From NCBI GenBank assembly GCA_026988315.1, contig JALSLJ010000064.1, forward strand, positions 1 through 50,504: a DNA stretch of 50,504 nt, in the 5' to 3' direction. Shown here in pieces: positions 26,561-50,504 of the stretch (within the stretch, counting starts at the first letter, position 1; each line of letters starts with the position of its first letter). The notes under the pieces are model-generated. The model ran no database searches and was not told the DNA's origin. It saw nothing but the letters and a program-made list of their open reading frames with translations. This DNA is from Sulfurimonas sp. (GTDB taxonomy: Bacteria; Campylobacterota; Campylobacteria; Campylobacterales; Sulfurimonadaceae). A program made the translations under genes and the position numbers.

Positions 26561-27346
26561 TCAACCAAACTTACCAGTAATATACTCTTCTGTTAGTTTC
26601 TCTTTAGGTGTTACAAACATCTCTTCTGTGTAACCAAGTTCTATTAGCTCACCTAAGTACATAAAACCAGTATAGTCACTCACACGGGCAGCTTGTTGCA
26701 TATTATGCGTAACAATAATGATAGAAACTTTCTTTTTTAGCTCAATAACTAGCTCTTCAATCCCTGAAGTAGAGATTGGATCAAGTGCAGATGTAGGCTC
26801 ATCAAAAAGTAAAACTTCAGGCTCAACAGCAATGGCTCGTGCTATACACAAGCGTTGTTGCTGTCCACCTGAGAGACCATTTGCATCATGCTTAAGTCTA
26901 TCTTTAACCTCTTTCCAAATTGCAGCATCACACAAGGCTTTTTCAACACGGTCATTGAGTTCAGTTTTATTTTTAATCCCTTGAAGTTTCATCCCATATG
27001 CCACATTGTCAAATATGCTCATTGGAAAAGCTGTAGGTTTTTGAAAAATCATACCTATTTGAATTCTAAGGTTGATTAAATCTTCTTTTGATGTTAAGAT
27101 ATTTCTGTTTTTAAATAAAATCTCTCCAGCATATTCATTCCCAGGATATAAATCATGCATACGATTAAAAGCTCTTAAGAGTGTTGTTTTACCACATCCA
27201 GAGGGACCGATAAGTGCCGTAATACTATTTTTTGCAATAGGCATATTTAATTTTTTAATGCTTGGCTCATCAGCGGATGCATATGTAAATTCAAAGTTTT
27301 TAACTTCGAGTGCTTTTTCTTCAGTTATATCTACGATAGTAGCCAT
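26561..27346 (-). CDS. pstB: Phosphate ABC transporter ATP-binding protein
   Basis: PstB hydrolyses ATP to power high-affinity phosphate import through PstCA. The ATG at 27346 ([11 protein letters not shown]) overlaps the pstA stop as TAATG and gives 261 residues, the family norm. The frame is open for 34 more codons upstream, but these lie inside pstA and have no ABC character. Walker A is GPSGCGKTT (about 45-53), the signature LSGGQQQR, Walker [14 protein letters not shown], and the switch histidine is in [10 protein letters not shown]. PstB-specific [12 protein letters not shown] is present. Confidence 0.95.
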
Positions 27347-28188
27347 TATTTTCCTTTTCTTTTCATAATAATTAATCGTCCAAGTATATTTAAAGTAAGA
27401 ATAAACATACTTAAAATAAATGCTGCCGCCCAACCAAGCTTTTGCCAATCTTCATAGGGACTTGTAGCATAGTTATACATAGTCACAGTAAGAGATGCCA
27501 TTGGTTCCATCATATCTGTATTTAAAAAGTTGTCATTAAATGATGTAAAAAGCAGAGGAGCAGTTTCACCTGCCACACGAGCCACACCAAGTAAGATTCC
27601 TGTAAGTATCCCAGCCTTAGCTCCACGATATACTACCTGCGTAATCACTTTGTACTTTGGAGCACCAAGCGCAAAAGCTGCTTCACGCAGAGTTGATGGG
27701 ACAAGCTGCAACATATCATCTGTAGTTCTTAAAATAATAGGAAGCATAATAATAGTAAGTGCAACAGAGCCTGCCCAACCAGAAAAGTGACCCATTGGAG
27801 CTACAACGATAGCATAAACAAAAGCACCGATAACAATACTAGGAGCCGACATCATAATATCTGATATATCACGAATAGTTTCAGCAAGTTTAGATTTTTG
27901 TCCATACTCACTAAGGTATGTTCCTGCTAGTACACCGAGTGGAACACCAAATAGTGTGGCAACTCCAACAATCATAAACTGACCGATTAGCGCATGTTTA
28001 AGACCACTATCTTCATAACCTGGAGGTGCACCCTCTTCGCTAAAGATAGTCCAACTAAGAGCATCCACGCCATTTATAACTAAAACACCTAAAATCCAAA
28101 ACAGAAACCCGATTCCGATTATTGCTGATAATGTGGAGAGAACCATAACTATATTGTTTGTAATGATTCGTTTTTGAGTATGTGTCAT
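27346..28188 (-). CDS. pstA: Phosphate ABC transporter permease PstA
   Basis: PstA is one of the two inner-membrane permeases of the phosphate importer. The 280 residues contain six hydrophobic segments, and the EAA-type loop with [20 protein letters not shown] contacts PstB (about 165-185). [17 protein letters not shown] is the PstA signature segment after it. The gene overlaps both neighbours by one base (TAATG on each side), so pstC, pstA and pstB are translationally coupled. Confidence 0.95.
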
Positions 28189-29045
28189 TACGCAACCCTT
28201 GTTCTGCGTAAAAAGTAAAACTTAGCAATAGAGATAATCGTAAAACTTATAACAAGTAGTAGCAGTGACAATTCAAATAAAGAGGAGTAGTAAAGATCTG
28301 TGTCTGCTTCTGTAAACTCATTGGCAAGTGTTACAGGGATAGAAGTAGCAGGTGCAGTTAAGTCTAGTGAGATTTTATGAACATTACCCATAACAAATGT
28401 AACAGCCATCGTCTCACCAATAGCACGACCAAGAGCTAAGATAAATGAACCGATGATCCCCGCTTTTGCGTAAGGGATAACGATATCTTTTATAACATCC
28501 CATTTCGTTCCACCAAGTGCATAGGCTGATTCTTTTAGAATATCTGGAGTTGTATTCATCGCATCACGAGTAACGGCTGCCATAAATGGAAGAATCATGA
28601 TAGATAAAACAATACCAGCAGTTAACATACTGATACCGATACCACCAAAAGTGTCACGAATAATAGGTACAAAGTAAAAAAGTCCCCACATTCCGTAGAT
28701 AACAGATGGAATTGCTGCTAGAAGTTCTATGGAAACTCCAACTGGTGATTTAAGTTTAGCAGGTGCAAGTTCGCTTAAAAAAATTGCTACCCCTATAGCT
28801 AAAGGAACTGCTAAAATCATCGCTAAAAATGTCGAAACTATAGAACCGTAGATTGCTGGAAGCGCTCCAAATTTTTCCAAGTTAGGTGCCCATTTTGTTT
28901 CTGTAACAAAATCAAAGCCAAGAGCCTGCATAGATTCCATTGAGTGTTGAAATAAAACGGTAAAAATCCAAGCAACTAGAAACAATACCGATATAGCTAC
29001 AAGTTTCGTTGAGTGTGCAAAAATTTTATCAATAATTAGACTCAA
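28188..29045 (-). CDS. pstC: Phosphate ABC transporter permease PstC
   Basis: PstC is the second permease of the Pst importer and first gene of the minus-strand pst operon. The 285 residues have six membrane segments. The EAA loop reads LKESAYALGGTKWDVIKDIVIP (about 165-185), followed by the PstC motif ALGRAIGETMAVTFVMGN. GGAG lies before the ATG. Its promoter carries two 11-bp-spaced GTAACC repeats typical of a PhoB-family box. pstS is not adjacent: it lies 2 kb away on the other strand beyond two ppk2 genes. Confidence 0.95.
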   Translation of the reverse strand: MSLIIDKIFAHSTKLVAISVLFLVAWIFTVLFQHSMESMQALGFDFVTETKWAPNLEKFGALPAIYGSIVSTFLAMILAVPLAIGVAIFLSELAPAKLKSPVGVSIELLAAIPSVIYGMWGLFYFVPIIRDTFGGIGISMLTAGIVLSIMILPFMAAVTRDAMNTTPDILKESAYALGGTKWDVIKDIVIPYAKAGIIGSFILALGRAIGETMAVTFVMGNVHKISLDLTAPATSIPVTLANEFTEADTDLYYSSLFELSLLLLVISFTIISIAKFYFLRRTRVA

Positions 29046-29073
29046 ATTATATCTCCTATTAAAAAAGTTCGAT

Positions 29074-29105
29074 ATTGTAAAAAAACTTGGTTACATGAAG
29101 GTTAC
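29074..29105 (-). promoter_or_regulatory. Pho-box-like promoter of pstCAB-phoU
   Basis: On the minus strand, GTAACC occurs twice exactly 11 bases apart (+ strand GGTTAC at 29100-29105 and 29089-29094). A TACAAT -10 (29074-29079) starts 10 bases after the second GTAAC. The same geometry is found before pstS, the porin and the TtpC/TonB operon. PhoB-family regulators bind 11-bp direct repeats; identity of the regulator is inferred. Confidence 0.7.
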
Positions 29106-29157
29106 TAAATGGATTTAATTGAAGATATTATCAAGAAAAGTAGGAGTATACTTATAT

Positions 29158-29213
29158 TAAGTCCTGAGTCAAAAATAGCATTGGAGTTGGTCTTATTTTT
29201 GACTCAGGACTTA
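29158..29213. repeat. Perfect 20-bp inverted repeat upstream of ppk2
   Basis: Two perfect 20-base arms (29158-29177 and 29194-29213, core AGTCCTGAGTC) surround a 16-base loop. They lie between divergent pstC and the first ppk2 gene, ending 24 bases before the latter's start. In the ppk2 transcript this would form a very stable hairpin next to the ribosome site. No T-run follows on either strand. Confidence 0.75.
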
Positions 29214-29237
29214 TAAGCAAAAAAACAAGGAATAGTT

Positions 29238-30134
29238 ATGGCATCAAAAGAGACAAATATATTTGATATTGATGGAAAAAAAATACCACTTAGTGAGCTG
29301 ATTAAAGGGTATAAAAAATCAAAAGCTGCGAAAAAATCTAAGAACAAAGCGGAAGAGAAAAGGGTCAATGAGCAAAGACTAAAGCCATATCAGGCAGAGC
29401 TTATTAAGTTGCAAAAATATCTGGAGATAACTGACCAGAAAATGATAATTCTTTTTGAGGGTCGTGATGCGGCTGGAAAAGGTGGAACAATAAGAAGGGT
29501 TACAAGATATATGGATGAAAAACATTATCGTGTTGTAGCTCTTGGCAAACCAACAGAAGAGCAAAAGACGCAGTGGTTTTACCAAAAATATGTACAGCAC
29601 TTTCCACGCGGTGGAGAGATAGTTCTTTTTGACCGCAGTTGGTATAACCGTGCGATGGTTGAATCAGTTTTTAATTTTTGTTCCGAGAGAGAATATAATG
29701 ATTTTATGAATGGGGTAAAGGGTTTTGAAAACGATCTTGTGCGTCAAGGAATTATTCTTATCAAGCTCTATTATAGTGTAACAAAAGATGAACAAGCAAG
29801 AAGATTTGATAGACGAAAGAATGATCCTTTAAGACAGTGGAAACTAAGTGAAATTGATATGCAAGCTCAAGAGAGATGGGATGACTTTACAACTACGAAA
29901 TACAATATGATAAAGCAAACCCATTCTCATAATGCTCCATGGACAATAGTGCGTTCAAAAGATAAACAAAAAGCAAGACTGGAATCGATGAAAGTTATTT
30001 TAAACTCAGTTGATTATGATGGGCGTGATGAAAATCTCAACTATGCACTAGATCCAGAGATAGTTATATCTGGAGCAAGAGAGATAGAGATAATGGATGC
30101 ACAAATTACAAGCACTGGTAAGTTTATCGGTTAA
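29238..30134 (+). CDS. ppk2: Polyphosphate kinase 2, first of two tandem copies
   Basis: PPK2 transfers phosphate between polyphosphate and nucleotides, usually in the direction of making GTP/ATP. The 298-residue protein has Walker A GRDAAGKGGT at 75-84, Walker B region IVLFDRSWYNRAM (about 128-140), the lid segment FDRRKNDPLRQWKLSEID and the C-terminal HNAPWTIVRSKDK. It is a single-domain PPK2 of class I-like build. The N-terminal 50 residues are lysine-rich. It begins with GGAAT upstream of the ATG, 24 bases past a long hairpin, and is followed 27 bases later by a paralogue. Confidence 0.93.
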   Translation: MASKETNIFDIDGKKIPLSELIKGYKKSKAAKKSKNKAEEKRVNEQRLKPYQAELIKLQKYLEITDQKMIILFEGRDAAGKGGTIRRVTRYMDEKHYRVVALGKPTEEQKTQWFYQKYVQHFPRGGEIVLFDRSWYNRAMVESVFNFCSEREYNDFMNGVKGFENDLVRQGIILIKLYYSVTKDEQARRFDRRKNDPLRQWKLSEIDMQAQERWDDFTTTKYNMIKQTHSHNAPWTIVRSKDKQKARLESMKVILNSVDYDGRDENLNYALDPEIVISGAREIEIMDAQITSTGKFIG

Positions 30135-30161
30135 TTTAAAATATATAATGAGGAAAAATAG

Positions 30162-31094
30162 ATGGGACAAGAAAGAAACATAATAAATGAAGAGTTTAAA
30201 GATGAAGAGGAGATAGATACTCAAAAACAAGAGAAACATAAATCTAAAAACTTTCAACGAAAAAGAAAAGAGATGAAGAAAAAAGGTAATAAAGTTCAAA
30301 TTTGGGTAAAACAAGAGACTTTGGATTATGAAAAAGAGCTCACCTCTTTACAGATAGAACTTTTGAAATTTCAAAACCATGTAAAAGATAAAGGTCTTAA
30401 AATTCTTATGATTTTTGAGGGTCGTGATGCTGCTGGGAAAGGGGGCACTATCAAAAGGATTACAGAACACCTTAACCCAAGGGGAGCTAGAATTGTGGCT
30501 TTAGAAAAGCCAAATGATAAAGAGACAACTCAGTGGTATTTTCAAAGGTATGCGAAACACTTACCGAGTGCAGGGGAGATAGTATTCTTTGACAGAAGTT
30601 GGTACAATCGTGCAATGGTAGAGCCTGTAATGGGATTTTGCACAGAAAGACAGCATCATAAATTTTTAAAAGATGCTCCCGCGTTTGAGAAAATGATAGT
30701 AGATGAAGGGATTCAAATCTTTAAGTTTTACTTCTCTGTATCTAAAGATGAGCAAGCTAAGAGATTTAAAGCAAGAGAAACAGACCCACTAAAGCAGTAT
30801 AAGTTGTCGCCAGTTGATAAAGAGTCACAAAGATTATGGAATGAGTATTCGTTGGCGAAATTCATGATGCTGAGTGCAACTCATACTGAATCGGCTCCTT
30901 GGACAATTGTGAAGAGTGATAATAAGAAAAAAGCGAGAGTGAACTGCATCAAGCATATTTTACATTTTGTTGATTATCCAGATAAGATTAGTAAGAAAAA
31001 GATAAAAATTGATAAAAATATAATTGTTTATGGACGAGACGAAGCTATATCAATGGAGAAGATGTTTAAGTTTTCAATGAAAAAACAATATTAA
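30162..31094 (+). CDS. ppk2: Polyphosphate kinase 2, second of two tandem copies
   Basis: This 310-residue paralogue of the preceding gene has the same ordered motifs: Walker A GRDAAGKGGT at 87-96, IVFFDRSWYNRAMVEPVMGF (about 140-159), ARETDPLKQYKLSPVD and SAPWTIVKSDNK. The VMGF sequence after the Arg-rich lid fits PPK2 class I. Its N-terminal 45 residues are strongly charged and differ from copy one. A GGAAAAATAG ribosome region lies in the 27-base gap, so both are probably on one message. The two copies may differ in nucleotide preference or reaction direction; the sequence alone does not show which. Confidence 0.93.
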   Translation: MGQERNIINEEFKDEEEIDTQKQEKHKSKNFQRKRKEMKKKGNKVQIWVKQETLDYEKELTSLQIELLKFQNHVKDKGLKILMIFEGRDAAGKGGTIKRITEHLNPRGARIVALEKPNDKETTQWYFQRYAKHLPSAGEIVFFDRSWYNRAMVEPVMGFCTERQHHKFLKDAPAFEKMIVDEGIQIFKFYFSVSKDEQAKRFKARETDPLKQYKLSPVDKESQRLWNEYSLAKFMMLSATHTESAPWTIVKSDNKKKARVNCIKHILHFVDYPDKISKKKIKIDKNIIVYGRDEAISMEKMFKFSMKKQY

Positions 31095-31095
31095 A

Positions 31096-31138
31096 GTATT
31101 CATTTTGTAATCTAATTGTAACATTGAAGTTTTATAAT
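31096..31138 (+). promoter_or_regulatory. Pho-box-like promoter of pstS
   Basis: GTATT (31096), GTAAT (31107) and GTAAC (31118) start at exact 11-base steps, and a TATAAT -10 (31133-31138) begins 10 bases after the last. The start codon is 25 bases further on. The spacing is identical to that before pstC and the porin. Confidence 0.7.
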
Positions 31139-31162
31139 CTCGTATCTTAAAAATTAAAAGGT

Positions 31163-32173
31163 ATGAAAATGTTAAAAAAATTAGCTTTAGTGGCACTTGT
31201 TACTGCTGTAAGTGTAAGTTCTTCATTCGCTGCTGACAAAATCAATGGAGCTGGTGCATCTTTCCCAGCTCCTCTTTATTATGATTGGGCGTATTCTTAT
31301 AAAAAAGATACTAAAAATCGTGTGAACTATCAGTCTATAGGTTCTGGTGGTGGGATTAAACAAATCACTAAGCGTGTTGTAAACTTTGGTGCTTCTGATA
31401 AGCCTTTGAACTCTAAAAAATTGGCAAAAGCTAAACTTTTTCAGTTTCCTGCTGCGATCGGTTCTATTGTAATTGCGTTTAATGTTAAAGGTATTGCTGA
31501 TGAAACTTTAAAATTATCAAACGATGTAGTTGCCGATATATTTGCTGGTGTAATTACTAAGTGGAATGACCCAAAAATTGCTGCTACTAATAGTGGCGTA
31601 AAACTTCCAAATGAAAAAATAATTGTTGTTCGTCGCTCAGATGGGAGTGGTACAACTTATAACTTTACTTACTATTTGAGTGGAAGTTCAGAGAATTGGA
31701 AAAACAGTTATGGAGTTGGTAAAGCTGTTGACTGGGCTGTTGGTATTGGTGGAAAAGGTAATGAGGGTGTTGCTAACTTAGTAAAGCAAACCCCTTATTC
31801 TATTGGTTATATGGAACACGCTTATAAAGAGAAAAATCACCTCTCAGCGGCTATCCTTAAAACTGCAAATGGTAAATGGGTAACTGCTACAGAGGAAAAC
31901 TTTAAAGCTGCTGCAAAATACGCAAGCTGGACTAAAGAGGATAACTTCTATGCGATGTTAGCACTACAGCCAGGTGATAATTCATACCCAATCGTTGCTG
32001 CTACTTTCATTTTACTTCCATATGAAAAGCCTGCAATGAATAAAAAAGTTATAGCATTTTTTGACTATGCTTTTAAAAATGGTGACAAATCAGCTAAGAA
32101 GCTAGGATACATTTCACTTCCAGAAGCTACTAAAAAAATGGTTCGTGAATATTGGGCAGCTAATATTAAGTAA
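31163..32173 (+). CDS. pstS: Phosphate-binding periplasmic protein PstS
   Basis: PstS is the periplasmic receptor that hands phosphate to PstCAB. A signal peptide (about 1-24, ending SSFAAD) precedes the type II binding protein fold. Family landmarks are INGAGASFPAPLYYDW (about 27-43), SIGSGGGIKQI, FGASDKPL and VVRRSDGSGTTYNFT, which supply the backbone and side-chain phosphate contacts. The 336 residues are normal. The gene has its own Pho-box-like promoter and a hairpin downstream, so it is probably transcribed alone at a high level, apart from pstCAB. Confidence 0.96.
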   Translation: MKMLKKLALVALVTAVSVSSSFAADKINGAGASFPAPLYYDWAYSYKKDTKNRVNYQSIGSGGGIKQITKRVVNFGASDKPLNSKKLAKAKLFQFPAAIGSIVIAFNVKGIADETLKLSNDVVADIFAGVITKWNDPKIAATNSGVKLPNEKIIVVRRSDGSGTTYNFTYYLSGSSENWKNSYGVGKAVDWAVGIGGKGNEGVANLVKQTPYSIGYMEHAYKEKNHLSAAILKTANGKWVTATEENFKAAAKYASWTKEDNFYAMLALQPGDNSYPIVAATFILLPYEKPAMNKKVIAFFDYAFKNGDKSAKKLGYISLPEATKKMVREYWAANIK

Positions 32174-32389: not shown

Positions 32390-32442
32390 GTGACATTTTC
32401 GTAACTGTATGTAATCATTATGTAACCAAACTACTTTATAAT
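32390..32442 (+). promoter_or_regulatory. Four-repeat Pho-box-like promoter of the porin gene
   Basis: GTGAC (32390), GTAAC (32401), GTAAT (32411) and GTAAC (32422) recur at 11-, 10- and 11-base steps. TATAAT (32437-32442) begins 10 bases after the last. This array is longer than those before pstC and pstS and matches the four-repeat array of the TtpC/TonB operon. Confidence 0.7.
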
Positions 32443-32473
32443 TTTACCAATATAACATACTAGGAAATTAATT

Positions 32474-33592
32474 ATGAAGAAAATTGCATTATCAATTGCA
32501 ACAATCGTAACAATATCAATGGCTGCTGGGGATGTACCAGTAGAGCCTATAGCTAAAGCAGAAGCGCAAAGTGGATTTTTTGATAGACTTCATGCTAAAG
32601 GTGATATGAGACTGAGATATGAAACAATCGAAAAAGGTGAGGGTGCTAGTGAGAGCAATAAGTATAGAACTCGATACCGCTTTAGATACAATTTAAATGT
32701 TGATATTATGGATAATCTCCTTCTTGAAACTGCAATCTCAAGTGGTAGATACAATCCAACATCAGGAAATGTAACTTTTAAAGATGACGATAACTGGGCA
32801 GACTACTTTGTAGATGAACTTAAACTTGATATTGCAGATGTTAAATATTCATTTGATAATGCATGGATTAGAGCCGGTAAAAGTAAGCACCACATCTATA
32901 GACCAATTAAAACACAACTTGTATGGGATAATGATATCCGTTTAGAGGGTGTGAACTATGGTTATAAAGATAGTAGCACTATGATTAGAGTAGGTGCTAA
33001 TAGAGTACATAGAGAATTAGACTATAAAGATGGCGATGATATTAACATTTTCCTTGCACAGTATGTTCATACACAAAAACTAGCTAAGGCTAAGTTAAAT
33101 TTAGGTGGGGCTTATTACTACTATGATGGTGTTAAAGGGAATACTGTTCAGTCAGAAAATGGATTTAAGCAGAATTCAAATGATGGTAGCGTATATACTG
33201 AGGATTATGGAATATTAGAAGTTTTTGGTGAGCTAAAGTATAAAGATGTAATGGGTATGCCATTTAAAACAGCACTAACACTAGCATATAATACACTAGC
33301 AGATGATGATAATCTTGGGTATGACTTTAGCATGGAACTCGGTGCTACTAAAAAAGTAGAGGACTACAAAATTGCTTTTACTTATAGAGATGTTCAAAAA
33401 GATGCAGTCTATGGCGCACATAATGATTCTGATTTTAGTGGTGGTGGGACAGATTCTAAAGGTTACTTTATTAAAGGAAAATATAAATTCGCTAAAAATG
33501 TAGATCTTGGTGCGTGGGTTAACTACAGTAAACTAGGTGATGCTGAAACTGATTACCACCGTGTGCAATTGGATGCAATTCTGAAATTTTAA
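32474..33592 (+). CDS. Outer-membrane porin, probably phosphate-starvation induced
   Basis: A signal peptide (about 1-18) precedes a short helical stretch and a 330-residue beta-barrel that opens RLHAKGDMRLRYET and ends in the classic VQLDAILKF with terminal phenylalanine. Strands alternate throughout (MIRVGANRVHREL, FKTALTLAYNTLAD, YKIAFTYRDVQK). A 16-stranded porin is the likely fold. Its promoter carries four Pho-box-like repeats and it follows pstS, so a phosphate or polyphosphate-selective channel comparable in role to PhoE or OprO/OprP is inferred. The sequence itself does not show selectivity. Confidence 0.8.
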   Translation: MKKIALSIATIVTISMAAGDVPVEPIAKAEAQSGFFDRLHAKGDMRLRYETIEKGEGASESNKYRTRYRFRYNLNVDIMDNLLLETAISSGRYNPTSGNVTFKDDDNWADYFVDELKLDIADVKYSFDNAWIRAGKSKHHIYRPIKTQLVWDNDIRLEGVNYGYKDSSTMIRVGANRVHRELDYKDGDDINIFLAQYVHTQKLAKAKLNLGGAYYYYDGVKGNTVQSENGFKQNSNDGSVYTEDYGILEVFGELKYKDVMGMPFKTALTLAYNTLADDDNLGYDFSMELGATKKVEDYKIAFTYRDVQKDAVYGAHNDSDFSGGGTDSKGYFIKGKYKFAKNVDLGAWVNYSKLGDAETDYHRVQLDAILKF

Positions 33593-40551: not shown

Positions 40552-41232
40552 TTACGCTAAAAGATACCCAACCCCTCTGATAGTCTTTATATACTCTTTT
40601 TCTTTAGTAGGGTCTATTTTTTCTTTTAATCTTTTGATAGCTACATTGACTGTTTTTTGATGGATGTTTTCAGAGTCTTTCCAGATATGTTTAAGGAGAT
40701 ACTCTCTATCTAAAACGCGCCCTTTATTCATTATCATAATATGTAAAAGAGCAGTTTCAAGTTTTGTTAGACCAATATCTATCTCGTTTATATTTGCCTT
40801 ATGTTGATTCAAGTCTAGCTTTATATCTTTGTATGTAACATCTTTTTCAATCTCTTTATACGATTGTCCATACCTTTTGAGTACAGCTTTGATGCGTAAA
40901 AGTAACTCCTCCAAATCAAAAGGCTTAGTGATGTAATCATCTGCACCTCTTAAAAATCCATCTTTTATGTCATCCTGAGAATCTTTGGCAGATAAGAAGA
41001 TTACAGGTGTATTGATATTTTTACTTCTTAACATCTCTACATATAAACTGCCTTCAATGTCAGGAAGATTTCTATCCATAATTATAAGGTCGATTTTTTC
41101 TTCACTTAGTACTTTTCTTACATGCTTAGTGTTTAAAAATCCAAGCACATCGTAACCTGCAGAAGTAAGATTGTACTCTAATAGTTCAAGTATATCGTTG
41201 TCATCATCTACTATTAATATATGTTCTTTCAT
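40552..41232 (-). CDS. OmpR/PhoB-family response regulator
   Basis: The 226-residue regulator has a receiver domain (about 3-118) with acidic pocket DDD near residue 9-11, phospho-acceptor in LIIMDRNLPD (D53), switch threonine/serine in VIFLSA and lysine in YITKPFD. A winged-helix DNA-binding domain follows (about 130-226), ending TVNVAIKRLKEKIDP and YIKTIRGVGYLLA. It lies 106 bases downstream of the TonB-dependent receptor gene, on the same strand, with no kinase next to it. Given the 11-bp repeats before four promoters in the window, it is a candidate PhoB-like controller, but that link is inferred. Confidence 0.92.
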   Translation of the reverse strand: MKEHILIVDDDNDILELLEYNLTSAGYDVLGFLNTKHVRKVLSEEKIDLIIMDRNLPDIEGSLYVEMLRSKNINTPVIFLSAKDSQDDIKDGFLRGADDYITKPFDLEELLLRIKAVLKRYGQSYKEIEKDVTYKDIKLDLNQHKANINEIDIGLTKLETALLHIMIMNKGRVLDREYLLKHIWKDSENIHQKTVNVAIKRLKEKIDPTKEKEYIKTIRGVGYLLA

Positions 41233-41338
41233 TAAAGGAATCTCCTTATTTATTTATTTAGTTTAAACAAACTTTATTTCGAATAGGTTACATTTGAAAG
41301 TAAGATATTACCATTTGGTAACTTTTTAAATAAGACTA

Positions 41339-44300
41339 CTAATATTTATATGATAGTGACGCACTATATTTTCTTCCTTTTTTGAAGCTATTTGTAATAT
41401 GGTTTTTGTCCCCTTGAAACCAAACAGTCTCCTCATCAAGAATATTTCCTAGTTTTAGTTTTAATCCTAAACCATTGCTATATTTCTCAATCCAAACAAA
41501 GTCAAGTGTAGCAGCAGGATCTTCCATGTAGTCTGGGTATTCACTATCAGGTAGTCCTCCACCATTTTGTTCAATCATTCCAACTTTTCTAATTCTTTCA
41601 CCCATTTTGTTGTAGGTGAGCGTTGCAGAACGATTTTTAATCTCATATGAAATAGTTATGTTAACAACTGTTTGAGAAAGACCTTGTAATTGTCTATGGT
41701 TGTTTGTATAAACTTCAAGTTGTTCATCTCTTAAAGTTACATCAGAGTCAGTATAAGAGAAGTTGCCAGATAAATAGTAATTGTTGAGTTTGTTGTATAT
41801 AAAATCAAGTTTTTTTCTACCATCAACTTCAAAACCATACAGTATTGCAGATTCAGCATTATCAAAAGAGTAAATTGGTAAAGATGATGTAGGCATCATC
41901 ACATCTTCAATAGGTTTATCCAGGTTTTTATAAAAAAGACCAAATTTCACATTTTCTGTGTCTGAAAAGTAGTGAGAATATTTTAAATCATAATTATCTA
42001 TGTTGGTATATTCTAATTCAGGATTTCCTAAAACATCAGCAATGTCATATGGATGAGTATATAGACCATCTGAAGCCTCTCTAAGGTCTGGTAAAATGTA
42101 TGTTTTTGAATATGCAAAATCAAAATTATTATCTTTATCTAGTTTGTATTTCACTGAGATACTAGGGTACACATCATTAATAGAAAGTTCATTTGCTGTT
42201 CTAATAATGTTTCGTCTAAGGTTAAAATCAGGATTTGTACTATCTTCTTTGTATTGATAAGTTGTTTGTTTTACATTAACCGTTCTTGCTCCAAATAAAA
42301 GTTCAATATTTTTATTTGGTTTTAAGAATGTACTAAGATAGAAGTTGGATTCATCAACAATAGCATCAAAATAATCCTTTGGTTGGGATAGAGTTGCTAA
42401 AAGAAGATTTCTATCATCGTATGCGATGTCAGAGTTAATATATGTGTCATAAATTGTATCTATATTATCTGTATAAGTATTTACTGGAGTGGTAGTAGTG
42501 TTTTTATAGCTTAGAAAGTATTTGTGTTGCTTAGATTCTCTGTCTTTTTGACTCAGGTTAAAACCAACATCTATATAATCTTCTTCACTTAAAAAGTCAA
42601 AATGAAATTTATTTTTTAAGTAAAAAGCTTTTTGAATATCAATTGAGCTTAAATTTATTCCTAAGTGATTTGAATTTTGATTACTTAAAAATGGTTGTCC
42701 ATCAATAGAGCTACTATCTTGAATATAATAGTATCTGTAGTTGTTAGGCTGGCTAAGTTCAGCACTCGCACTTTCTAGACCAAATCTAAAATTTGATTCA
42801 TTGCTAAAGAGTTCATAGTCAAAGTTACCACTAATTTGATCTACATTTAAAACCCTTTCTTCCCATTGCAGGTCGTAAAATGTATAAATTTCATCTTGGT
42901 TTGAACCAAATTTTCCGTGAGTTATTTTTGTACCTTCGGTACCATTTAAAGTAAATAACTTAGTGTACTTTACATTAAATAAGTTGTTAAAGTTATAGCC
43001 AATATTAAATATTCCAGATTGTGTATATTCTGAATAAGCGTGTTGTGTAAAACCAAATTGAGTTGGATTACTAAAAAGTGTGTTTGTATATATATCCATC
43101 TCATATTTATATTTCTCTTCATATCTGGAACTATGGCTTTGAGAATATTTATAATTAAAAAAAGTAGTTATTTTATGCTTATTTGCAATTTCAAAATTTC
43201 TTGCTGCCTCTATAGAAAAGCTACCACCCATTGGAAGTTTTTGATTTGTTACACTATAATCTCTATCTCCAATATAGTCTTGTGTAAATTGTATAAGTTC
43301 CTCTTTAGTAAAATACCTAGTAGTAAACGCTTCTTGTCTTTGGCCAACAACTATTTTAGAACTATTAATGATAGCACTATCTATCGCTCTATATCCATCA
43401 TCTATCCCTAGCCAATCAGTGCTACCACCTTTTTGTGTTATGGAGTCTTTAAATGTATTGCTGTTCCCTTTTAATCCAAAAGAGACTTTTACATAATCAT
43501 CTTTAGACTTATCCTTAGTTCTGATATCGATATATCCACCACCAAAGTTACTAGGAATATCTGCTGTTGCACTTTTTTGAACTTTCATAGAGCTGATTAC
43601 ACCAGATGGAAATATATCTAGTGGCACTACTCTTTTTGTTGGATCTGGAGATGGAAGAGGCATAGAGTTCATCTCTATGTTAGAGTATCTATCACCTAAT
43701 CCTCTTACATATATGCTTTTGCCACCTACTAAAGTTACCCCAGTCACTCTCTTAAGTGCACTAGCGGCATCGCTATCACCTTTTTTGGACATCTCTTCTG
43801 AGCCTAAAATATTTGTAATAGCATTTGAATTTTTCTCTTCAGCAATTATACTCGCGATACTCCCCGTTACCTTTGGTGCTAAAACAACAAACTCCTCAAG
43901 TTCCATAGCTGCTGGTGTTAATCTTATTTCAGTTTTTATTGAACTATCTTTTTTTACTACAATATTATCAACAGTTTGGGCACTATATTCTGAGTGAACT
44001 ACAGATATACTTATGTTTACATCTGATGGTATCTTAACGCTAAACCTACCATTTTCATCTGTTCTAGCATCTATAGATGTGCCCTTAACAAATACCCTTG
44101 CATTTGGGATTGGTAGATTTTTATCAGTAGTTAATACAACTCCGTTTAATATACCAGCTTTAGTGAAATCAGCTTTAATTGCTGTATTTGTATCTTTATT
44201 TGCAATGGGATTGTCTATATTTATACTTGGAGCTTGTTTATCAGAAAAGTATGTGATAATAACCTGTGTATCCCTATCTTGAAGAATAACAATTGTTTTT

Positions 44301-44551
44301 TTAACATAACCAAGATTATTTTTATTATTATCTTTAGCAAAGATTTCTATATTATGTGATCCAATAGGAAGAGATACCTCTAGTGAGCCATCGGAGTCTG
44401 TTTGATAACTCTCTTTTTCATCTATAATAATCTCTGTATTTGATAATGGATGTCCATCTAAAAAAGTAAATACAGATATACTACCAGTGCCTTTAGCATA
44501 TGTGTATGTTAATGTGATTGCTAAAATAAAAAAAACTTTTATAAGTCTCAT
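41339..44551 (-). CDS. TonB-dependent outer-membrane receptor
   Basis: The ATG at 44551 (MRLIKVFF) overlaps the TPR gene stop as ATGA and has GGAG 8 bases upstream; an earlier in-frame ATG would overlap more. The 1070-residue protein has a signal peptide (about 1-19), two carboxypeptidase-regulatory-like beta domains (about 22-105 and 134-212), a TonB-box-like EEFVVLAP (about 219-226), a plug (about 235-355) with YVRGLGDRYSNIEMNSMPLP and FGGGYIDIRTK, and a barrel ending YSASLSYKY. The substrate is unknown. It is the last gene of the TtpC/ExbBD/TonB operon, whose promoter looks Pho-regulated. Confidence 0.92.
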   Translation of the reverse strand: MRLIKVFFILAITLTYTYAKGTGSISVFTFLDGHPLSNTEIIIDEKESYQTDSDGSLEVSLPIGSHNIEIFAKDNNKNNLGYVKKTIVILQDRDTQVIITYFSDKQAPSINIDNPIANKDTNTAIKADFTKAGILNGVVLTTDKNLPIPNARVFVKGTSIDARTDENGRFSVKIPSDVNISISVVHSEYSAQTVDNIVVKKDSSIKTEIRLTPAAMELEEFVVLAPKVTGSIASIIAEEKNSNAITNILGSEEMSKKGDSDAASALKRVTGVTLVGGKSIYVRGLGDRYSNIEMNSMPLPSPDPTKRVVPLDIFPSGVISSMKVQKSATADIPSNFGGGYIDIRTKDKSKDDYVKVSFGLKGNSNTFKDSITQKGGSTDWLGIDDGYRAIDSAIINSSKIVVGQRQEAFTTRYFTKEELIQFTQDYIGDRDYSVTNQKLPMGGSFSIEAARNFEIANKHKITTFFNYKYSQSHSSRYEEKYKYEMDIYTNTLFSNPTQFGFTQHAYSEYTQSGIFNIGYNFNNLFNVKYTKLFTLNGTEGTKITHGKFGSNQDEIYTFYDLQWEERVLNVDQISGNFDYELFSNESNFRFGLESASAELSQPNNYRYYYIQDSSSIDGQPFLSNQNSNHLGINLSSIDIQKAFYLKNKFHFDFLSEEDYIDVGFNLSQKDRESKQHKYFLSYKNTTTTPVNTYTDNIDTIYDTYINSDIAYDDRNLLLATLSQPKDYFDAIVDESNFYLSTFLKPNKNIELLFGARTVNVKQTTYQYKEDSTNPDFNLRRNIIRTANELSINDVYPSISVKYKLDKDNNFDFAYSKTYILPDLREASDGLYTHPYDIADVLGNPELEYTNIDNYDLKYSHYFSDTENVKFGLFYKNLDKPIEDVMMPTSSLPIYSFDNAESAILYGFEVDGRKKLDFIYNKLNNYYLSGNFSYTDSDVTLRDEQLEVYTNNHRQLQGLSQTVVNITISYEIKNRSATLTYNKMGERIRKVGMIEQNGGGLPDSEYPDYMEDPAATLDFVWIEKYSNGLGLKLKLGNILDEETVWFQGDKNHITNSFKKGRKYSASLSYKY

Positions 44552-45822
44552 AAGCACTCCAGAGTATTTTTTTTGCATTTTTCAATGTTTTTTCTTATGA
44601 CAGTTGCCTTTGAAAAAAGCTCATTGTCTGTTATTTTTTTGAGATGCATCTCAGCCATAGGAAAATCACCAGCCATGTAGTATGAATAAGCTAATGCATA
44701 TCTCAAGTTGTCATCTTGAAGCATCCCGTATCTATCTAGTGCTTTATGGAGACCTGTTACTTTTTTATATTCACCACTATCTATATAAATGGCTACTTTT
44801 TGCTTTAGTTTTTCCACTTTATCAGGGTTTTGTGCATTTAGATAGAGAGCATGCACTCTATTGTTTGCTCTTCTGTGCATCTCAACGGCATCTTTTAAAT
44901 ATATAAGATCATAATAGGAGCTAACTTCAAATAGATGTGCAGCACTTTGTTTCATATCTTTTTTGAGATACATATGACCAAGAAGTACAGCAATTTTAGG
45001 TTCTTTTGGAAAAAGGAGTTTTGCTTCTTCTAATAGTTTTATAGCCTCGTCAATCTGTTCACCACCAATGAGCATCTGAGCAAGTGCTATATACTCTTTA
45101 GCACCACTTCCAGCTTTTTGCATATAAACTTTAGACGCATCAATAGCAGCTTGATAGAGCTTTAAATCTGCAAAATAATAAAACTTTTGCTTGAGCAATG
45201 TTAAGTCATCAGGAAATTTTTTGATACCTTCACTCAGTATAGATATAGCATTTGTATGATCTTTCAATTTCCAATAACACTCAGCTCTTAGCGTATATAA
45301 AGAAGCTCTAGCCTTGCCTTTTTCTTTCGCATTATCTAAGGATTGTATCGTTTCTTTATAGTTTTTGAGTTTATAGTTTTCTTGAGAAAGATACATATAA
45401 AGTTGAGTGATTTTATCTTCTCTAATCTTTTCACCATCATATTCATCTTTTGGTTCTACTTTTTTTTCACTAGAACCGATAGAGAAGAGGTACTTTTCTT
45501 TTTTTTGAGTTTTTGGAGCTTTAAACTCTTTTGTTTTTGTGGCTGCAATCGCTTTTTCAAAATCTATTATTGCTTCTTCATGCTTATTCTCTTTGGAGTT
45601 TACTACACCACTAATGGTATGAAATTTTGCTCCATCAAAATTTTGTGCTTCTTTATCTACTTCATTTAGTTCTAATCTTGCTTTATCAAGTTTTCCATCA
45701 TATATCATTAATGTTGCTAATGCTAGGTGATCTACTAGATTTTTAGCATCTTTTGCAAATAAAGATATATTAAGTATAGCTACTATTGACAAGATATATA
45801 TAATTTTTTTCATTATCTTCAC
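44548..45822 (-). CDS. TPR-repeat periplasmic protein of the TonB operon
   Basis: A signal peptide (ILSIVAILNISLFAKD) precedes about ten TPR-like helix pairs through the 424 residues, e.g. LYMYLSQENYKLKNYKETI, AECYWKLKDHTNAISILSEG and IAVLLGHMYLKKDMKQSAAHL. The start is a GTG at 45822 with AGG close by, or the ATG at 45813. TonB2-type operons of Vibrio and relatives carry a TPR protein after tonB, so the position is conserved. It probably supports assembly or coupling of the TonB complex. It overlaps the receptor gene by 4 bases. Confidence 0.85.
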   Translation of the reverse strand: MKIMKKIIYILSIVAILNISLFAKDAKNLVDHLALATLMIYDGKLDKARLELNEVDKEAQNFDGAKFHTISGVVNSKENKHEEAIIDFEKAIAATKTKEFKAPKTQKKEKYLFSIGSSEKKVEPKDEYDGEKIREDKITQLYMYLSQENYKLKNYKETIQSLDNAKEKGKARASLYTLRAECYWKLKDHTNAISILSEGIKKFPDDLTLLKQKFYYFADLKLYQAAIDASKVYMQKAGSGAKEYIALAQMLIGGEQIDEAIKLLEEAKLLFPKEPKIAVLLGHMYLKKDMKQSAAHLFEVSSYYDLIYLKDAVEMHRRANNRVHALYLNAQNPDKVEKLKQKVAIYIDSGEYKKVTGLHKALDRYGMLQDDNLRYALAYSYYMAGDFPMAEMHLKKITDNELFSKATVIRKNIEKCKKNTLECL

Positions 45823-45823
45823 T

Positions 45824-46462
45824 CTACCTAAAACGAATTTTTTGTTTAGCCCATAATTTTACAGGCTTTCCTTTGTATTTAGCAGGGCTAAATCTCCAAG
45901 AAAGAACAGCATTTAAAGCTGCATTGTCAAATACTCCAACTGGATGTGATTCGAGAATTTTTGCAAGTTCTACGCTTCCATCTTTAGCTATAAGTAAGTT
46001 TATAGTTACATAACCTTTAATCCCATCTTTTAGAGCAGATTCTGGATATTCAAGTGGTGGTCTGCTCATCACTTTAGGTTTTGAATCAACAGTCCCTTCG
46101 GTCATAACAGCGTCTTCTGCTATGTCGCCGAGTAAATCTTTTGCATCACCTACTATATCACCAGTTGCAAACTCTGGTATATTCATAGATACGCCACCCA
46201 AAAGAGAATTCATATTTGGTAACGGTGCCTTAGGAGCTGCTTTTTTTGGCTTTGGTTTTGGTTTTGGCTTTGGCTTTTGAGCACTCTGTTTTTTAGCTTT
46301 ATTTGCTTGTATGTGTCGAACCTCTTTTTTTACAGCAGGCTCTTTTTCTTTTACACTTTTGTTAAAAGATACGACAAGTATTGCCATAAAAAGACCACCA
46401 AGAAGCATGATAAAGAAAGCTTTTAATGCTCTGCCTTTAGTGCTATATATTTTTTGTGACAT
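45824..46462 (-). CDS. tonB: TonB protein
   Basis: TonB transmits energy from the proton motive force to outer-membrane receptors. The 212 residues have an N-terminal membrane anchor (about 13-30), a Lys/Pro spacer with repeated KPKP (about 60-75), and a C-terminal TonB domain (about 130-212) with EYPESALKDGIKGYVTINLL, DNAALNAVLSWRFSPA and a final KIRFR. The short spacer is typical of TonB2-like proteins. It starts 9 bases after exbD. Confidence 0.92.
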   Translation of the reverse strand: MSQKIYSTKGRALKAFFIMLLGGLFMAILVVSFNKSVKEKEPAVKKEVRHIQANKAKKQSAQKPKPKPKPKPKKAAPKAPLPNMNSLLGGVSMNIPEFATGDIVGDAKDLLGDIAEDAVMTEGTVDSKPKVMSRPPLEYPESALKDGIKGYVTINLLIAKDGSVELAKILESHPVGVFDNAALNAVLSWRFSPAKYKGKPVKLWAKQKIRFR

Positions 46463-46471
46463 CTCTTTTTG

Positions 46472-46876
46472 CTATCCCATCTCTTTTGTTGTTGATACTG
46501 CTACATCTTTAGCACCACTCATTCTGCACTCATCTATAACATCTATAAGATTACTCACTGGTATATTTGAATCAGAAATAACTAACACAGATTTATCAAC
46601 AGATGTTCTTAATAGGTCCCTAAGTTTACTCTGAATAGCCCATATTTTAATAGGCTGGTTATCTATATAAACCTCTCCGCTATTATCTATGTAAACTCTT
46701 ATCACCTTAGTAGATGCTGTTGAAGCAGAAGCAGCAGATGGGCGATCTAGATCGAGTTTCATATCTTTAACAAATGTAGTAGTTACCATAAAAAATATAA
46801 GTAATATGAAAACCATATCAATAAGTGGCGATACATCTATACTATCTACATCTTGACTTTTTTTCTTAAACCTCAT
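46472..46876 (-). CDS. exbD: ExbD biopolymer transport protein
   Basis: ExbD forms the proton-responsive dimer within the ExbB pentamer. The 134 residues include a single N-terminal membrane helix (about 18-38) with the essential aspartate in VSPLIDMVFILLIFF (D21), followed by a periplasmic domain ending ISDSNIPVSNLIDVIDECR and AVSTTKEMG. It overlaps exbB by 11 bases. Confidence 0.93.
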   Translation of the reverse strand: MRFKKKSQDVDSIDVSPLIDMVFILLIFFMVTTTFVKDMKLDLDRPSAASASTASTKVIRVYIDNSGEVYIDNQPIKIWAIQSKLRDLLRTSVDKSVLVISDSNIPVSNLIDVIDECRMSGAKDVAVSTTKEMG

Positions 46877-47489
46877 GTGAATCCTTCGTGCTTATAATGT
46901 CTGCAATTTGTTCAAATTCTAATGCAAATTGTTCTTCTTTTTTATCTAGTATTCTTCCAAAAATAAGTCCTGGAACCGCTACAACTAGACCAAGTTCTGT
47001 TGTAAATAATGCTTTTGAAATACCGCCAGCTATTGAATCGCCTTGAGCAAACATTGAGCTTGATTGTAGTGCATCAAAAGTCTCTATCATACCTATCACT
47101 GTTCCTAGAAGCCCAACTAAAGGAGCCAACATAACTATGGTTTTTACTAAGGTTGAATATTTTGTAATGATAAACACATATGGGAAAAGAGCGTCATATA
47201 TATAATTTCTAGGTCTTTTACCTATAGCTTGTGCTTCTCTTGCCGCTTGCAATGAGTCTCGAACAGCAAAGTCTAGTAAACCTACAAATATTTTATCATC
47301 CCCTCTTTTTTCATGCTTTTCAACTAATCTTCGTACACTTCCACGAGTACCACGCTTGAGGGTAATATATCTATACCCTAAGCCATACCATAGTAAAAGG
47401 TTCAAACAAAATAGTACCCACATAACTGCCCCACCAGCATTCATAAAAAATATGAATTGATTATAGTAGGCTAAAAGTGAATCAATCAT
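46866..47489 (-). CDS. exbB: ExbB/TolQ-family proton channel subunit
   Basis: This second, shorter MotA/TolQ/ExbB-domain protein (207 residues) has three membrane segments, with the conserved MLAPLVGLLGTVIGMIETFDAL (about 120-140) and GGISKALFTTELGLVVAVPGLI (about 150-172). It is the canonical ExbB that pairs with ExbD. It follows the longer TtpC-like gene with a one-base overlap. Possession of two ExbB-like proteins, one long and one short, is the hallmark of TonB2 systems. Confidence 0.92.
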   Translation of the reverse strand: MIDSLLAYYNQFIFFMNAGGAVMWVLFCLNLLLWYGLGYRYITLKRGTRGSVRRLVEKHEKRGDDKIFVGLLDFAVRDSLQAAREAQAIGKRPRNYIYDALFPYVFIITKYSTLVKTIVMLAPLVGLLGTVIGMIETFDALQSSSMFAQGDSIAGGISKALFTTELGLVVAVPGLIFGRILDKKEEQFALEFEQIADIISTKDSHEV

Positions 47490-48805
47490 TACGATTTGTT
47501 TTTCTCAAATAGGTTAACAATGTGAAGAGCGCTTTGCTCCATGCTGTCTTTTATATTTTGAGCCCATCCGCTTAGTAGGTTACCTAATAGTAAAAGAGGT
47601 ATAGCTACAACCAGACCAAGCATAGTTGTAACAAGAGCTTCTGAAATACCGCCAGATAATAGCTTAGGATCACCAGTACCATGAGTTGTAATGATATCAA
47701 ATGTTGCAATCATACCTGTTACTGTTCCTAGCAGCCCTAGTAGAGGTGCAACAGCAGCAAGAACAAGTACAAAGTTTCCAAACCTATCAATATTACTACT
47801 TTCATTTAAAATATTTTCCATAACGATATCTTCTATATGCGCTCTATCTTTTTTAATATTTCTTAAGGTAGCTTTTATCACCCTAGCAGTAGAGCCTTTA
47901 TAGTCCTTTATAGCATCTATTGCTTCATCTGCTCTGCCAGCTTCAACTTTAGCTACAACAATATTTGTTATTTCATTAACATTTGAACCAGATTTTGCAA
48001 GTAAAACAACTCTTATAAGAAGTAGTAAAATACCCAAAACTCCAAGAGCTAGAATGATGTAACCAATAGTTCCACCACCCTCTATAGTCTCTTCAATGGT
48101 TTTTTCTTTTGTGTATTCAACTTCTTTATCTAAGTTTTCATAAATGAAAATTTTCAAATCTCTTTTTAAAGTGTTATCTTTAAATGCTTTTGCTTGTTCA
48201 CTTGTTGGTACATTCCAAAGTTTAAGTTCTCCGTTTCCAGCTGGAGCCAAGGCACCAGCAGCATTTGTGGAGACACCATAAGAGGCTATGTTACCAACTT
48301 TGATAATTTCACCTTTTACTGTACTTCCATCAACAAGATAAAACTTTCCATTTTCAGTTTGCACAGATGAAAGTTTTGAATACAAGGTTGAGGTATCATT
48401 AAATGCTTTTCTCATAACTTCAGAGCCATTTGCCTTAGGCGAATCATTAACTTGTATATTATATTCATCAAGAAGTGATTTTGCTTGCATAATTACACTT
48501 GATATAATCTCTTTGTTACTTGTTTCATCTCCAAGTGTTTCATTTGCTTTTTCCACTTTGTATTCTAGTGTTTTATACTCTTCACTTAGGCTTACATATT
48601 TGTTTTGAAGTTTTTTAACCTTCTCTTTAGCCTTGACGATCTCTTTTTCATGAAGCTGTTTTTCTTTTTGTAGTCTTTGCTCTAACTCTGTTTTTTGTGC
48701 TTTTAAAAATGCAAATTCTTTTTGATATGCATCTGAGAGTTCATCAGCAGAGACTGAGGTAAATGCAAGCAGTATCGCTATTAATATTGTGCTAAAAATT
48801 TTCAT
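47489..48805 (-). CDS. ttpC: TtpC-like long ExbB-domain protein
   Basis: The 438 residues begin with a signal peptide (about 1-20), then a periplasmic coiled coil (about 25-110, EQRLQKEKQLHEKEIVKAKEKV...), a small beta region (about 150-235), a membrane helix (IGYIILALGVLGILLLLI, about 248-265) and a C-terminal MotA/TolQ/ExbB domain with LLGLLGTVTGMIATFDII and GGISEALVTTMLGLVVAIP. This is the build of TtpC, the extra component required by Vibrio TonB2. It overlaps both neighbours by one base. The name rests on architecture and operon order. Confidence 0.85.
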   Translation of the reverse strand: MKIFSTILIAILLAFTSVSADELSDAYQKEFAFLKAQKTELEQRLQKEKQLHEKEIVKAKEKVKKLQNKYVSLSEEYKTLEYKVEKANETLGDETSNKEIISSVIMQAKSLLDEYNIQVNDSPKANGSEVMRKAFNDTSTLYSKLSSVQTENGKFYLVDGSTVKGEIIKVGNIASYGVSTNAAGALAPAGNGELKLWNVPTSEQAKAFKDNTLKRDLKIFIYENLDKEVEYTKEKTIEETIEGGGTIGYIILALGVLGILLLLIRVVLLAKSGSNVNEITNIVVAKVEAGRADEAIDAIKDYKGSTARVIKATLRNIKKDRAHIEDIVMENILNESSNIDRFGNFVLVLAAVAPLLGLLGTVTGMIATFDIITTHGTGDPKLLSGGISEALVTTMLGLVVAIPLLLLGNLLSGWAQNIKDSMEQSALHIVNLFEKNKS

Positions 48806-49578
48806 TATTTACTCTCCATTAAAACTAAAGCATTTGGTATTTCAAAATATCCTGTTCTTATTTGCTTTTGTAGAGCATCAAACAAAGAGATAATCTTTTC
48901 AATATCTTTAGGGTCTGTTATATGTTTATACTTATAGCCATTATCTGTTTTTTCAACATATCCAACTTCATCCTTTGGAGTTGAGAAAAACATCATAACA
49001 GAGCCGATCTTTGCAACTTTTGCAAGGATTTTTTCACCCTTAAAGTCTATCTCTTGCTTAAATAGCCCTATCTCTTTTGTTACCCTAATGGTGTCATCAT
49101 AACTAGCCCACACTAGAGAAAGAGCTTTTTCTTGAGTTATTAAACCTTCATTGAGTTGTGATTTGATCTTTTCTAGGTCAGACACCCTTTTCTCGATCAT
49201 AAAAGGAATACCATCATTTATGGTTTTTTCTAAAAGAGCTATAGCATTTACAACAAGAGGTTTTAAGTCTTTGTTTGTAGATGTAGTCTCTTTGATCTTT
49301 TGTTTTATTTTTTCCAATTCTGCTTTTACTAGCTTAACAGATGTAGATTTTCTGTTTATCTGTGCTTCAGTGTCCGTTGATTGCATCTCGAGAGATTTCA
49401 TTTGAGATGTATATCTGCTTTTGTTTTCTTGTATTTCAGAATATAGGTTTTCAACATCTCCACGAAGATTTATGATTGACTTTACTATAGTTTCACTACT
49501 TTGCGCCATTAGCGCAGTAGAAAATAGTGTGCTTGAGAGTGCTAACAAAACTAGCTTTTGTTTTTTCTTTGTAAACAT
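48805..49578 (-). CDS. DUF3450-family periplasmic protein
   Basis: A signal peptide (about 1-25, ending ALMAQ) precedes a long coiled coil (about 30-110) and a C-terminal alpha/beta part with PLVVNAIALLEKTINDGIPF and SLVWASYDDTIRVTKEIG, the DUF3450 pattern. The 257 residues are usual. DUF3450 proteins begin TonB2/TtpC operons in many marine bacteria. Here it is the first gene, with a Pho-box-like promoter 30-80 bases upstream, and its stop overlaps the TtpC start by one base. Its molecular role is unknown; contact between TtpC and the cell envelope is a reasonable guess. Confidence 0.85.
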   Translation of the reverse strand: MFTKKKQKLVLLALSSTLFSTALMAQSSETIVKSIINLRGDVENLYSEIQENKSRYTSQMKSLEMQSTDTEAQINRKSTSVKLVKAELEKIKQKIKETTSTNKDLKPLVVNAIALLEKTINDGIPFMIEKRVSDLEKIKSQLNEGLITQEKALSLVWASYDDTIRVTKEIGLFKQEIDFKGEKILAKVAKIGSVMMFFSTPKDEVGYVEKTDNGYKYKHITDPKDIEKIISLFDALQKQIRTGYFEIPNALVLMESK

Positions 49579-49609
49579 TTGTACCCCATACGGTAAATTT
49601 ATGCGAAAT

Positions 49610-49661
49610 ATTATAGAAGTCTAATTACTAAAGTATTACTGAAGAATTACAGTTTGGTGAC
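49610..49661 (-). promoter_or_regulatory. Four-repeat Pho-box-like promoter of the TtpC/TonB operon
   Basis: Reading the minus strand, GTCAC (49657-49661), GTAAT (49646-49650), GTAAT (49635-49639) and GTAAT (49624-49628) recur at exact 11-base steps. TATAAT (49610-49615) begins 8 bases after the last. The DUF3450 start is 31 bases downstream. The layout matches the porin promoter. Confidence 0.7.
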
Positions 49662-49744
49662 AGAAAAATTATGTGATTGTTGCATTGAGAAGGATGTTTG
49701 TAAACAGTAGGTTGTCTTACCTACTGTTTAGTTATAAAATTTAA

Positions 49745-50504
49745 TTAGTTTGCACTATTGCCCGTACCAGCGTTAAACTTAGTTTCAAGAGTAACAGCAG
49801 AAGTACCTGTAAATCTCGCATCTGTAGATGAACCATTGATAGTTACATTTTCAAATGATGTGTTTGTAATATCTGCAGTATCAGAACTACCATCAGCACT
49901 ATTAGAATAGATCGCACCATAAGTATCTGTTACATTATCAGTAAGAGTACCGTTTAAGAAGTGACCACCGATACCATCTTTTTTGAAGTAGATACCACCC
50001 TCTTTACCAGAACCATTTTGAACGATGTTAAAGCCATCAAATGTAGCACTTGTAGTACCTGACATCTCAATAGCAGAGTTACCAAGAGTTGCAGTGATGT
50101 TTAAATCTTTAACTGTTCCAGAGTAACCATCATCGATATCGAAGTAATCATCAGTACAGTTTGTAAGAGATATATGTGAAAGGTTCACAGTACCACCCCA
50201 TAGCTCAATACAATCATCATCAGAATAATCAACTGTGATGTTTTCAATAGTAGTCCCAGAACCAACACCAACAAGAGAAAGACCATTAATCTCTTTATCA
50301 GTATCCATCGTGATACCAGAGTTTAAGATTTTAACATATTTTAAAGTACCTGAATTATCAGCTGAATCAGTTGTTCCAGCTACGAAAGTAGGATCAACTT
50401 CATAAGGATCAACCTGATCATTACCAGCATTACCGATGATAGTTAAACCACCCCATTGACCAACAGCAGGAGCTGCACCATCAATCGCAACTAGAGTAGA
50501 TGTG
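49745..50504 (-). CDS. Secreted parallel beta-helix protein (5' end outside the window)
   Basis: The frame is open from its stop at 49745 to the window edge, so the gene is cut off: about 252 C-terminal residues are visible, and an internal ATG at 50308 is not the true start. The visible part reads GQWGGLTIIGNAGND and GTLKYVKILNSG, followed by right-handed beta-helix rungs (TIENITVDYSDDDCIELWGG, VNLSHISLTNCTDDYFDIDD, NSAIEMSGTTSATFDGFNI). The family is found as large secreted or surface proteins, often beside TonB-dependent receptors. It precedes the TonB2-type operon by 166 bases on the same strand and may belong to the same regulon. Confidence 0.75.
   Translation of the reverse strand, partial: TSTLVAIDGAAPAVGQWGGLTIIGNAGNDQVDPYEVDPTFVAGTTDSADNSGTLKYVKILNSGITMDTDKEINGLSLVGVGSGTTIENITVDYSDDDCIELWGGTVNLSHISLTNCTDDYFDIDDGYSGTVKDLNITATLGNSAIEMSGTTSATFDGFNIVQNGSGKEGGIYFKKDGIGGHFLNGTLTDNVTDTYGAIYSNSADGSSDTADITNTSFENVTINGSSTDARFTGTSAVTLETKFNAGTGNSAN

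Follow-up and report, generated by a model that had tools for sequence, protein, structure and literature searches.

A probable phosphate-starvation scavenging system in Sulfurimonas combining a TtpC-type TonB motor, its own receptor and a surface beta-helix lipoprotein

In our judgment, the TonB operon described here probably encodes a scavenging system of the outer membrane that is induced by phosphate starvation and driven by a six-part TonB motor of its own. It was found in a stretch of Sulfurimonas DNA of 50,504 nucleotides (the window), which is the entire contig C64 of a genome with 112 contigs and 2.19 Mb. The nearest named relatives of the source genome are MAGs labelled Sulfurimonas, Sulfurovum and other Campylobacterales.

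The operon consists of seven tightly packed genes on the minus strand (49578-41339), separated in order by -1, -1, -11, 9, 1, and -31 bp. The first-pass annotation had listed a DUF3450 protein, a TtpC-like ExbB, ExbB, ExbD, TonB, a TPR protein and a receptor in one operon, and all seven were recovered with these families:

48805-49578, minus strand: TtpB-like protein (DUF3450), 257 aa (PF11932, 2.5e-25)
47489-48805, minus strand: TtpC, ExbB-like with a long N-terminal extension, 438 aa (PF01618, 6.1e-28, residues 306-423)
46866-47489, minus strand: ExbB, 207 aa (PF01618, 2.5e-22)
46472-46876, minus strand: ExbD, 134 aa (PF02472, 3.9e-29)
45824-46462, minus strand: TonB with a Pro-Lys-rich spacer, 212 aa (PF03544, 9.3e-21)
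44548-45822, minus strand: TtpD-like TPR protein, 424 aa (TPR families; position as TtpD in Vibrio vulnificus, PMC6957404)
41339-44578, minus strand: TonB-dependent receptor with an N-terminal carboxypeptidase-like domain and a plug, 1079 (or 1070) aa (PF13715, PF07715)

The TtpB-TtpC-ExbB-ExbD-TonB-TtpD set is thus present as six components in this order within a single operon, and TtpC is a second, larger ExbB-like protein with its MotA_ExbB domain near the C-terminus. The receptor had been given 1070 residues; this holds for translation from an ATG nine codons downstream, preceded by GGAG, whereas the first ATG gives 1079. Among the relatives, about 2.6 kb of extra sequence separates exbD from tonB in one locus (L053, 2872-5477), and a second, canonical-type TtpB/TtpC pair with far higher Pfam scores occurs in loci L002-L008 (genomes G005, G012, G017, G048, G093, G103, and G149).

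Upstream of the operon lie the following features:

49610-49684, minus strand: Pho-box array of 11-bp units, with TATAAT at 49615-49610 (scored with a pstS-promoter matrix from which the window was left out)
49701-49730, minus strand: perfect 12-bp inverted repeat without a T-run, between the beta-helix gene and the TonB operon
49745-50503, minus strand: right-handed beta-helix surface protein of the ElpS/FII type, C-terminal part, the gene being cut by the contig end

A PHO box is defined by eleven-nucleotide direct repeats (PMC4415409), and 11-bp direct repeats like those of pst promoters sit just before the -10 element of the operon. The four-repeat Pho-box-like array that the first-pass annotation had seen there proved to be real. 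Using an 11-bp unit matrix (TGTAACCtT.t) trained solely on 31 pstS promoters of relatives, with the window excluded, we found the best 4-unit frame at 49684-49641 (minus strand) with 14.1 bits, a score reached in 0 of 60 whole-window dinucleotide shuffles (maxima: mean 0.3, sd 4.75). The frame 49662-49619 reads TGTCACCAAAC TGTAATTCTTC AGTAATACTTT AGTAATTAGAC. Read directly, the last repeat unit ends 3 nt before TATAAT in the operon promoter and 5 nt before it in the pstS promoter. The top four-unit scores in the window lie before pstS, the TonB operon, pstC and the porin gene; 3-unit sites of at least 12 bits are confined in the window to these promoters, and a scan of 148,564 positions at other loci in the genome found none.

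The array is kept in 48 of 51 orthologous promoters (unit matrix, p<=0.01; mean z 6.1), mostly ending about 40 bp ahead of the start codon. With an earlier 28-mer matrix, likewise trained on the pstS promoters of relatives alone, 49 of 54 orthologous DUF3450 promoters beat their shuffles at p<=0.025. A Fur-like site was not found in the operon promoter, the best match being 11 of 19 positions and no better than in shuffles (p 0.89). As a control set, 63 neighbouring promoters turned out to be contaminated by phosphate genes, the high scorers adjoining pstS or being porins (for example Porin_O_P in L041), and the set was therefore kept as a weak contrast only (Mann-Whitney p 2e-5). The promoters of the canonical-type TtpB genes, intended as a negative control, were discarded, weak Pho-like arrays being present in three of seven (L002-L008). 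The motif shared with pstS and pstC, its conservation, the linkage with pst genes described below and the lack of a Fur-like site in the promoter strongly support, at the level of sequence, the control by phosphate that had been proposed for the operon.

The same contig carries further phosphate-related features:

25840-32173: phoU, pstB, pstA and pstC (minus strand), two ppk2 (plus strand) and pstS (plus strand), with Pho sites at 29106 and 31095-31127
32410-33592, plus strand: Porin_5 gene (32474-33592), preceded at 32410 by the best-scoring 2-unit Pho site of the window
40552-41232, minus strand: PhoB-like response regulator (PF00072, PF00486), an orphan whose paralogue on contig C77 is linked to a kinase
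41271-41292, minus strand: Pho-like site before the response-regulator gene (14.1 bits, 2 units, fourth-best 2-unit site of the window)

The site in front of the Porin_5 gene suggests that its product is a phosphate-induced porin. Two tandem PPK2-type polyphosphate kinase genes (29238-31094) stand between the divergent pstC and pstS promoters. PhoA was not found in the genome. The linkage of the operon with Pho boxes and pst genes, a point raised in the first-pass annotation, was conserved when relatives were surveyed: besides the arrays, pstS lies within 17 kb of the phosphate-type DUF3450 gene in 11 of the 13 genomes that have both on one contig (G000, G010, G027, G036, G044, G079, G091, G105, G140, G144, and G149), the two genes being far apart in G025 and G137. 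Since several of the 11 genomes are closely related, the number of independent events is smaller than 11. Among 37 loci, pst genes are present in nine; in L037 the receptor is followed by the regulator and then by pstS/pstC, and L033 repeats this order except that a gene for a hybrid sensor kinase stands after the regulator and before pstS.

A PhoB-like regulator gene had also been placed at the end of the operon. The gene is present, but it lies outside the coordinates given for the operon, 106 bp past the receptor, and its own Pho-like site suggests that it is probably a separate, self-regulated unit. Its best NCBIfam hits are PhoB models, below cut-off, and it is 54% identical to the C77 regulator, which is directly followed by a sensor kinase gene. 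The regulator that follows the receptor has diverged in some loci of the Sulfurovum type (L035, 17482-18150, 40% identity), with an acidic pocket of GED versus DDD in the window.

The beta-helix gene, which was absent from the first-pass finding, lies directly upstream of the TonB operon. It belongs to the system, and the surface lipoprotein that it encodes is the best clue to the function of that system. The protein is encoded upstream in 26 of 27 homologous loci with enough upstream sequence (the exception is L065), and several of these genes in relatives have Pho-like sites of their own. The 12-bp inverted repeat between gene and operon may mark a transcription end. The gene is single-copy in the genome, and while the window copy lacks the N-terminus, full-length relatives contain a lipobox. 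The relatives measure 370-1175 aa and keep the C-terminal beta-helix domain, with N-termini and lengths that vary; in L033 (8301-9056 and upstream) the variable N-terminal part resembles, by eye only, a DUF4214 domain. A structure model of one relative, L045 (pLDDT 86), is a right-handed beta-helix, and L045 has a weak match to the Beta_helix family. Foldseek returned generic pectin-lyase folds with low TM-scores, and a sequence search of the PDB found no relatives of the protein. A match to a SusD-family lipoprotein was not found, the partner being the beta-helix protein. In the receptor, TIGR01782 covers the barrel below its cut-off, and the predicted barrel resembles TonB-dependent transporters; RagA and XusA were the sole matches of the N-terminal domain in a sequence search of the PDB.

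The whole genome has only two exbD genes, the second of them on C89 next to a two-component system and a small exbB. Besides the operon copy, one tonB, on C88, scored over cut-off; plug-domain matches number eight. Given this general TonB motor, the motor of the operon is plausibly dedicated to the receptor encoded with it, and the earlier proposal of a single-purpose machine agrees with the receptor lying inside the operon and with a different tonB elsewhere.

The motor resembles the TonB2 and TonB3 systems of Vibrio vulnificus, which consist of the six proteins TtpB, TtpC, ExbB, ExbD, TonB and TtpD (PMC6957404), in identical order. TonB3 also has its receptor gene inside the operon and does not serve iron, while TonB2 is controlled by iron and Fur, unlike the window operon with its Pho-type repeats. 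The window further differs from both in the beta-helix partner and in having its receptor gene last in the operon. The lipoprotein-receptor pair finds its counterparts in other organisms. In Caulobacter crescentus, the surface lipoprotein ElpS (CC0170) and the TonB receptor CC0171 adjoin type II secretion genes (PMC2996285), and the PhoB regulon contains TonB receptors (PMC11208175). What ElpS/CC0171 and the window have in common is a TonB receptor coupled with a surface lipoprotein in a context of phosphate starvation; the Caulobacter pair stands beside a type II secretion system, the window pair beside a TtpB-TtpD TonB motor.

In Flavobacterium, the FI/FII/FIII lipoproteins and their TBDTs form part of the PHO regulon (PUSIII/IV) and are induced by phosphate, but not by iron or nitrogen, limitation; the low-phosphate set is reported to stay tightly repressed when nitrogen or iron is limiting (PMC8115612). 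In F. johnsoniae, lipoprotein FII adjoins phoB and a TBDT, and lipoprotein and TBDT are both induced by phosphate depletion (PMC8115612). Like the window, the FII locus combines a pectin-lyase-fold lipoprotein, a TBDT with a carboxypeptidase-like domain and a nearby phoB; the Flavobacterium cluster, from a different phylum, has no TonB motor of its own, whereas the window does. The presumed kinship of the window protein to CC0170 and Fjoh_0546 is drawn from these papers and from relatives that show the same gene arrangement. The SusCD/PusCD systems of Bacteroidota likewise join a receptor bearing a carboxypeptidase-like N-terminal domain with a surface lipoprotein, which there is of the SusD family, unlike in the window.

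The pair itself extends beyond the phylum, to Alteromonadales, Alphaproteobacteria and Bacteroidota. In a plasmid collection the beta-helix protein matched 21 records and the receptor 19, all of which were also among the beta-helix records. Plasmid pBGP9 of Alteromonas macleodii carries the row phoB-phoR-pstS-oxygenase-beta-helix-receptor-TtpB-TtpC-ExbB-ExbD-TonB-TPR, in which 11-bp repeats precede both the beta-helix gene and TtpB. Like the window, it has the beta-helix protein, the receptor and the six-part TonB motor near phosphate genes; unlike in the window, lipoprotein and receptor come first, a 1356-aa protein contains three beta-helix matches, and the receptor is about 27% identical. 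Several beta-helix matches per protein are seen in Alteromonadales. Pseudoalteromonas has the same gene set without neighbouring phosphate genes. In Sphingomonas and Indioceanicola, whose proteins match the beta-helix protein at 4e-10 and 3e-15, type II secretion genes come after the pair (the ElpS-receptor-T2SS arrangement), and no Pho-type array was found at these pairs. The lack of phosphate genes beside the Pseudoalteromonas copies and the lack of an array at the Sphingomonas and Indioceanicola pairs count against phosphate scavenging.

Under low phosphate, a PhoB-type regulator would bind the 11-bp repeats, and the operon would be switched on together with pstS, pstC and the porin gene. 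The surface-anchored ElpS/FII-type lipoprotein would then capture a phosphorus-bearing compound or present it to the receptor, which the TtpB-TtpC-ExbB-ExbD-TonB-TtpD machine may open using the proton-motive force. Phosphate freed in the periplasm could enter through PstSCAB, encoded on the same contig. If import is the direction, the likeliest substrate is phosphorus in organic or polymeric form; uptake of some phosphorus source is plausible and fits the phosphate-induced relatives in Caulobacter and Flavobacterium. Several observations count against this reading. The operon contains no phosphatase or nuclease gene, and the PhoX-family phosphatase gene of the genome (L133, G000:C8:46608-47678) has no Pho array within the stretch read. 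In Caulobacter, deletion of elpS left phosphatase activity unchanged, and cc0171 is reportedly expressed in both rich and poor medium (PMC2996285).

Alternatively, the machine might work outward, receptor and TonB motor placing the beta-helix lipoprotein on the cell surface or releasing it, which we consider unlikely. Outward working has been proposed for Oar and PopC in Myxococcus. That lipoprotein and receptor are strictly paired across phyla would fit such a role, as would the constant C-terminal domain behind variable N-termini and the finding that Caulobacter ElpS reaches the surface without a type II system (PMC2996285). Against it, ElpS was still produced by Caulobacter lacking cc0171 (data not shown in PMC2996285), and lipoprotein and TonB receptor pairs of the SusCD and XusAB type are import systems. 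Similarly improbable is a phosphate-regulated system for a nutrient other than phosphorus, for instance a glycan useful during surface or membrane-lipid remodelling under phosphate stress. The beta-helix fold is common to pectin-active enzymes, and the receptor matched TIGR01782, a family that includes sugar transporters, below cut-off; however, the fold likeness is generic, no sugar-active gene was found in the operon, and the conserved linkage is with pst genes.

There is also a slim chance that the TtpB/TtpC/TtpD extension is a motor for large or surface-bound cargo rather than an iron device, coupled here via the beta-helix lipoprotein to phosphorus polymers or to lipoprotein export. Uptake of iron, haem or metal chelates, of the TonB2/TtpC type as in Vibrio and near phosphate genes by chance, is very unlikely: the best-studied TtpB/C/D system, Vibrio TonB2, transports siderophores and has a Fur site (PMC6957404), and the best Foldseek matches of the receptor barrel are receptors for haem and siderophores, the kinds that dominate the PDB anyway, but the promoter conserves a Pho array instead of a Fur box, iron depletion does not induce the pair's relatives in Flavobacterium (PMC8115612), and Vibrio TonB3, the version with a receptor in the operon, carries no iron (PMC6957404).

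The pair was already known as phosphate-starvation proteins and the motor from work on iron; in the literature searched, no description joining a DUF3450/TtpC system with phosphate was found, and the union of pair and motor under Pho control appears undescribed in these papers. TtpC-type TonB systems have been treated as iron machines, and the receptor-bearing version, Vibrio TonB3, is without known cargo; the large-cargo reading of the motor, if true, could explain this orphan system as well. A TtpC system under phosphate control, kept throughout the Sulfurimonas and Sulfurovum relatives and with a parallel next to phoB-phoR-pstS in Alteromonas, makes it a testable proposition that some TonB motors serve phosphorus alone. 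It also unites the phosphate-starvation lipoproteins of Caulobacter and Flavobacterium, so far scattered, in one lipoprotein-receptor pair that spans phyla. The shared Pho switch and the surface lipoprotein point to energy-driven scavenging of phosphorus rather than iron, and suggest a route of phosphorus acquisition in chemosynthetic vent and sediment bacteria.
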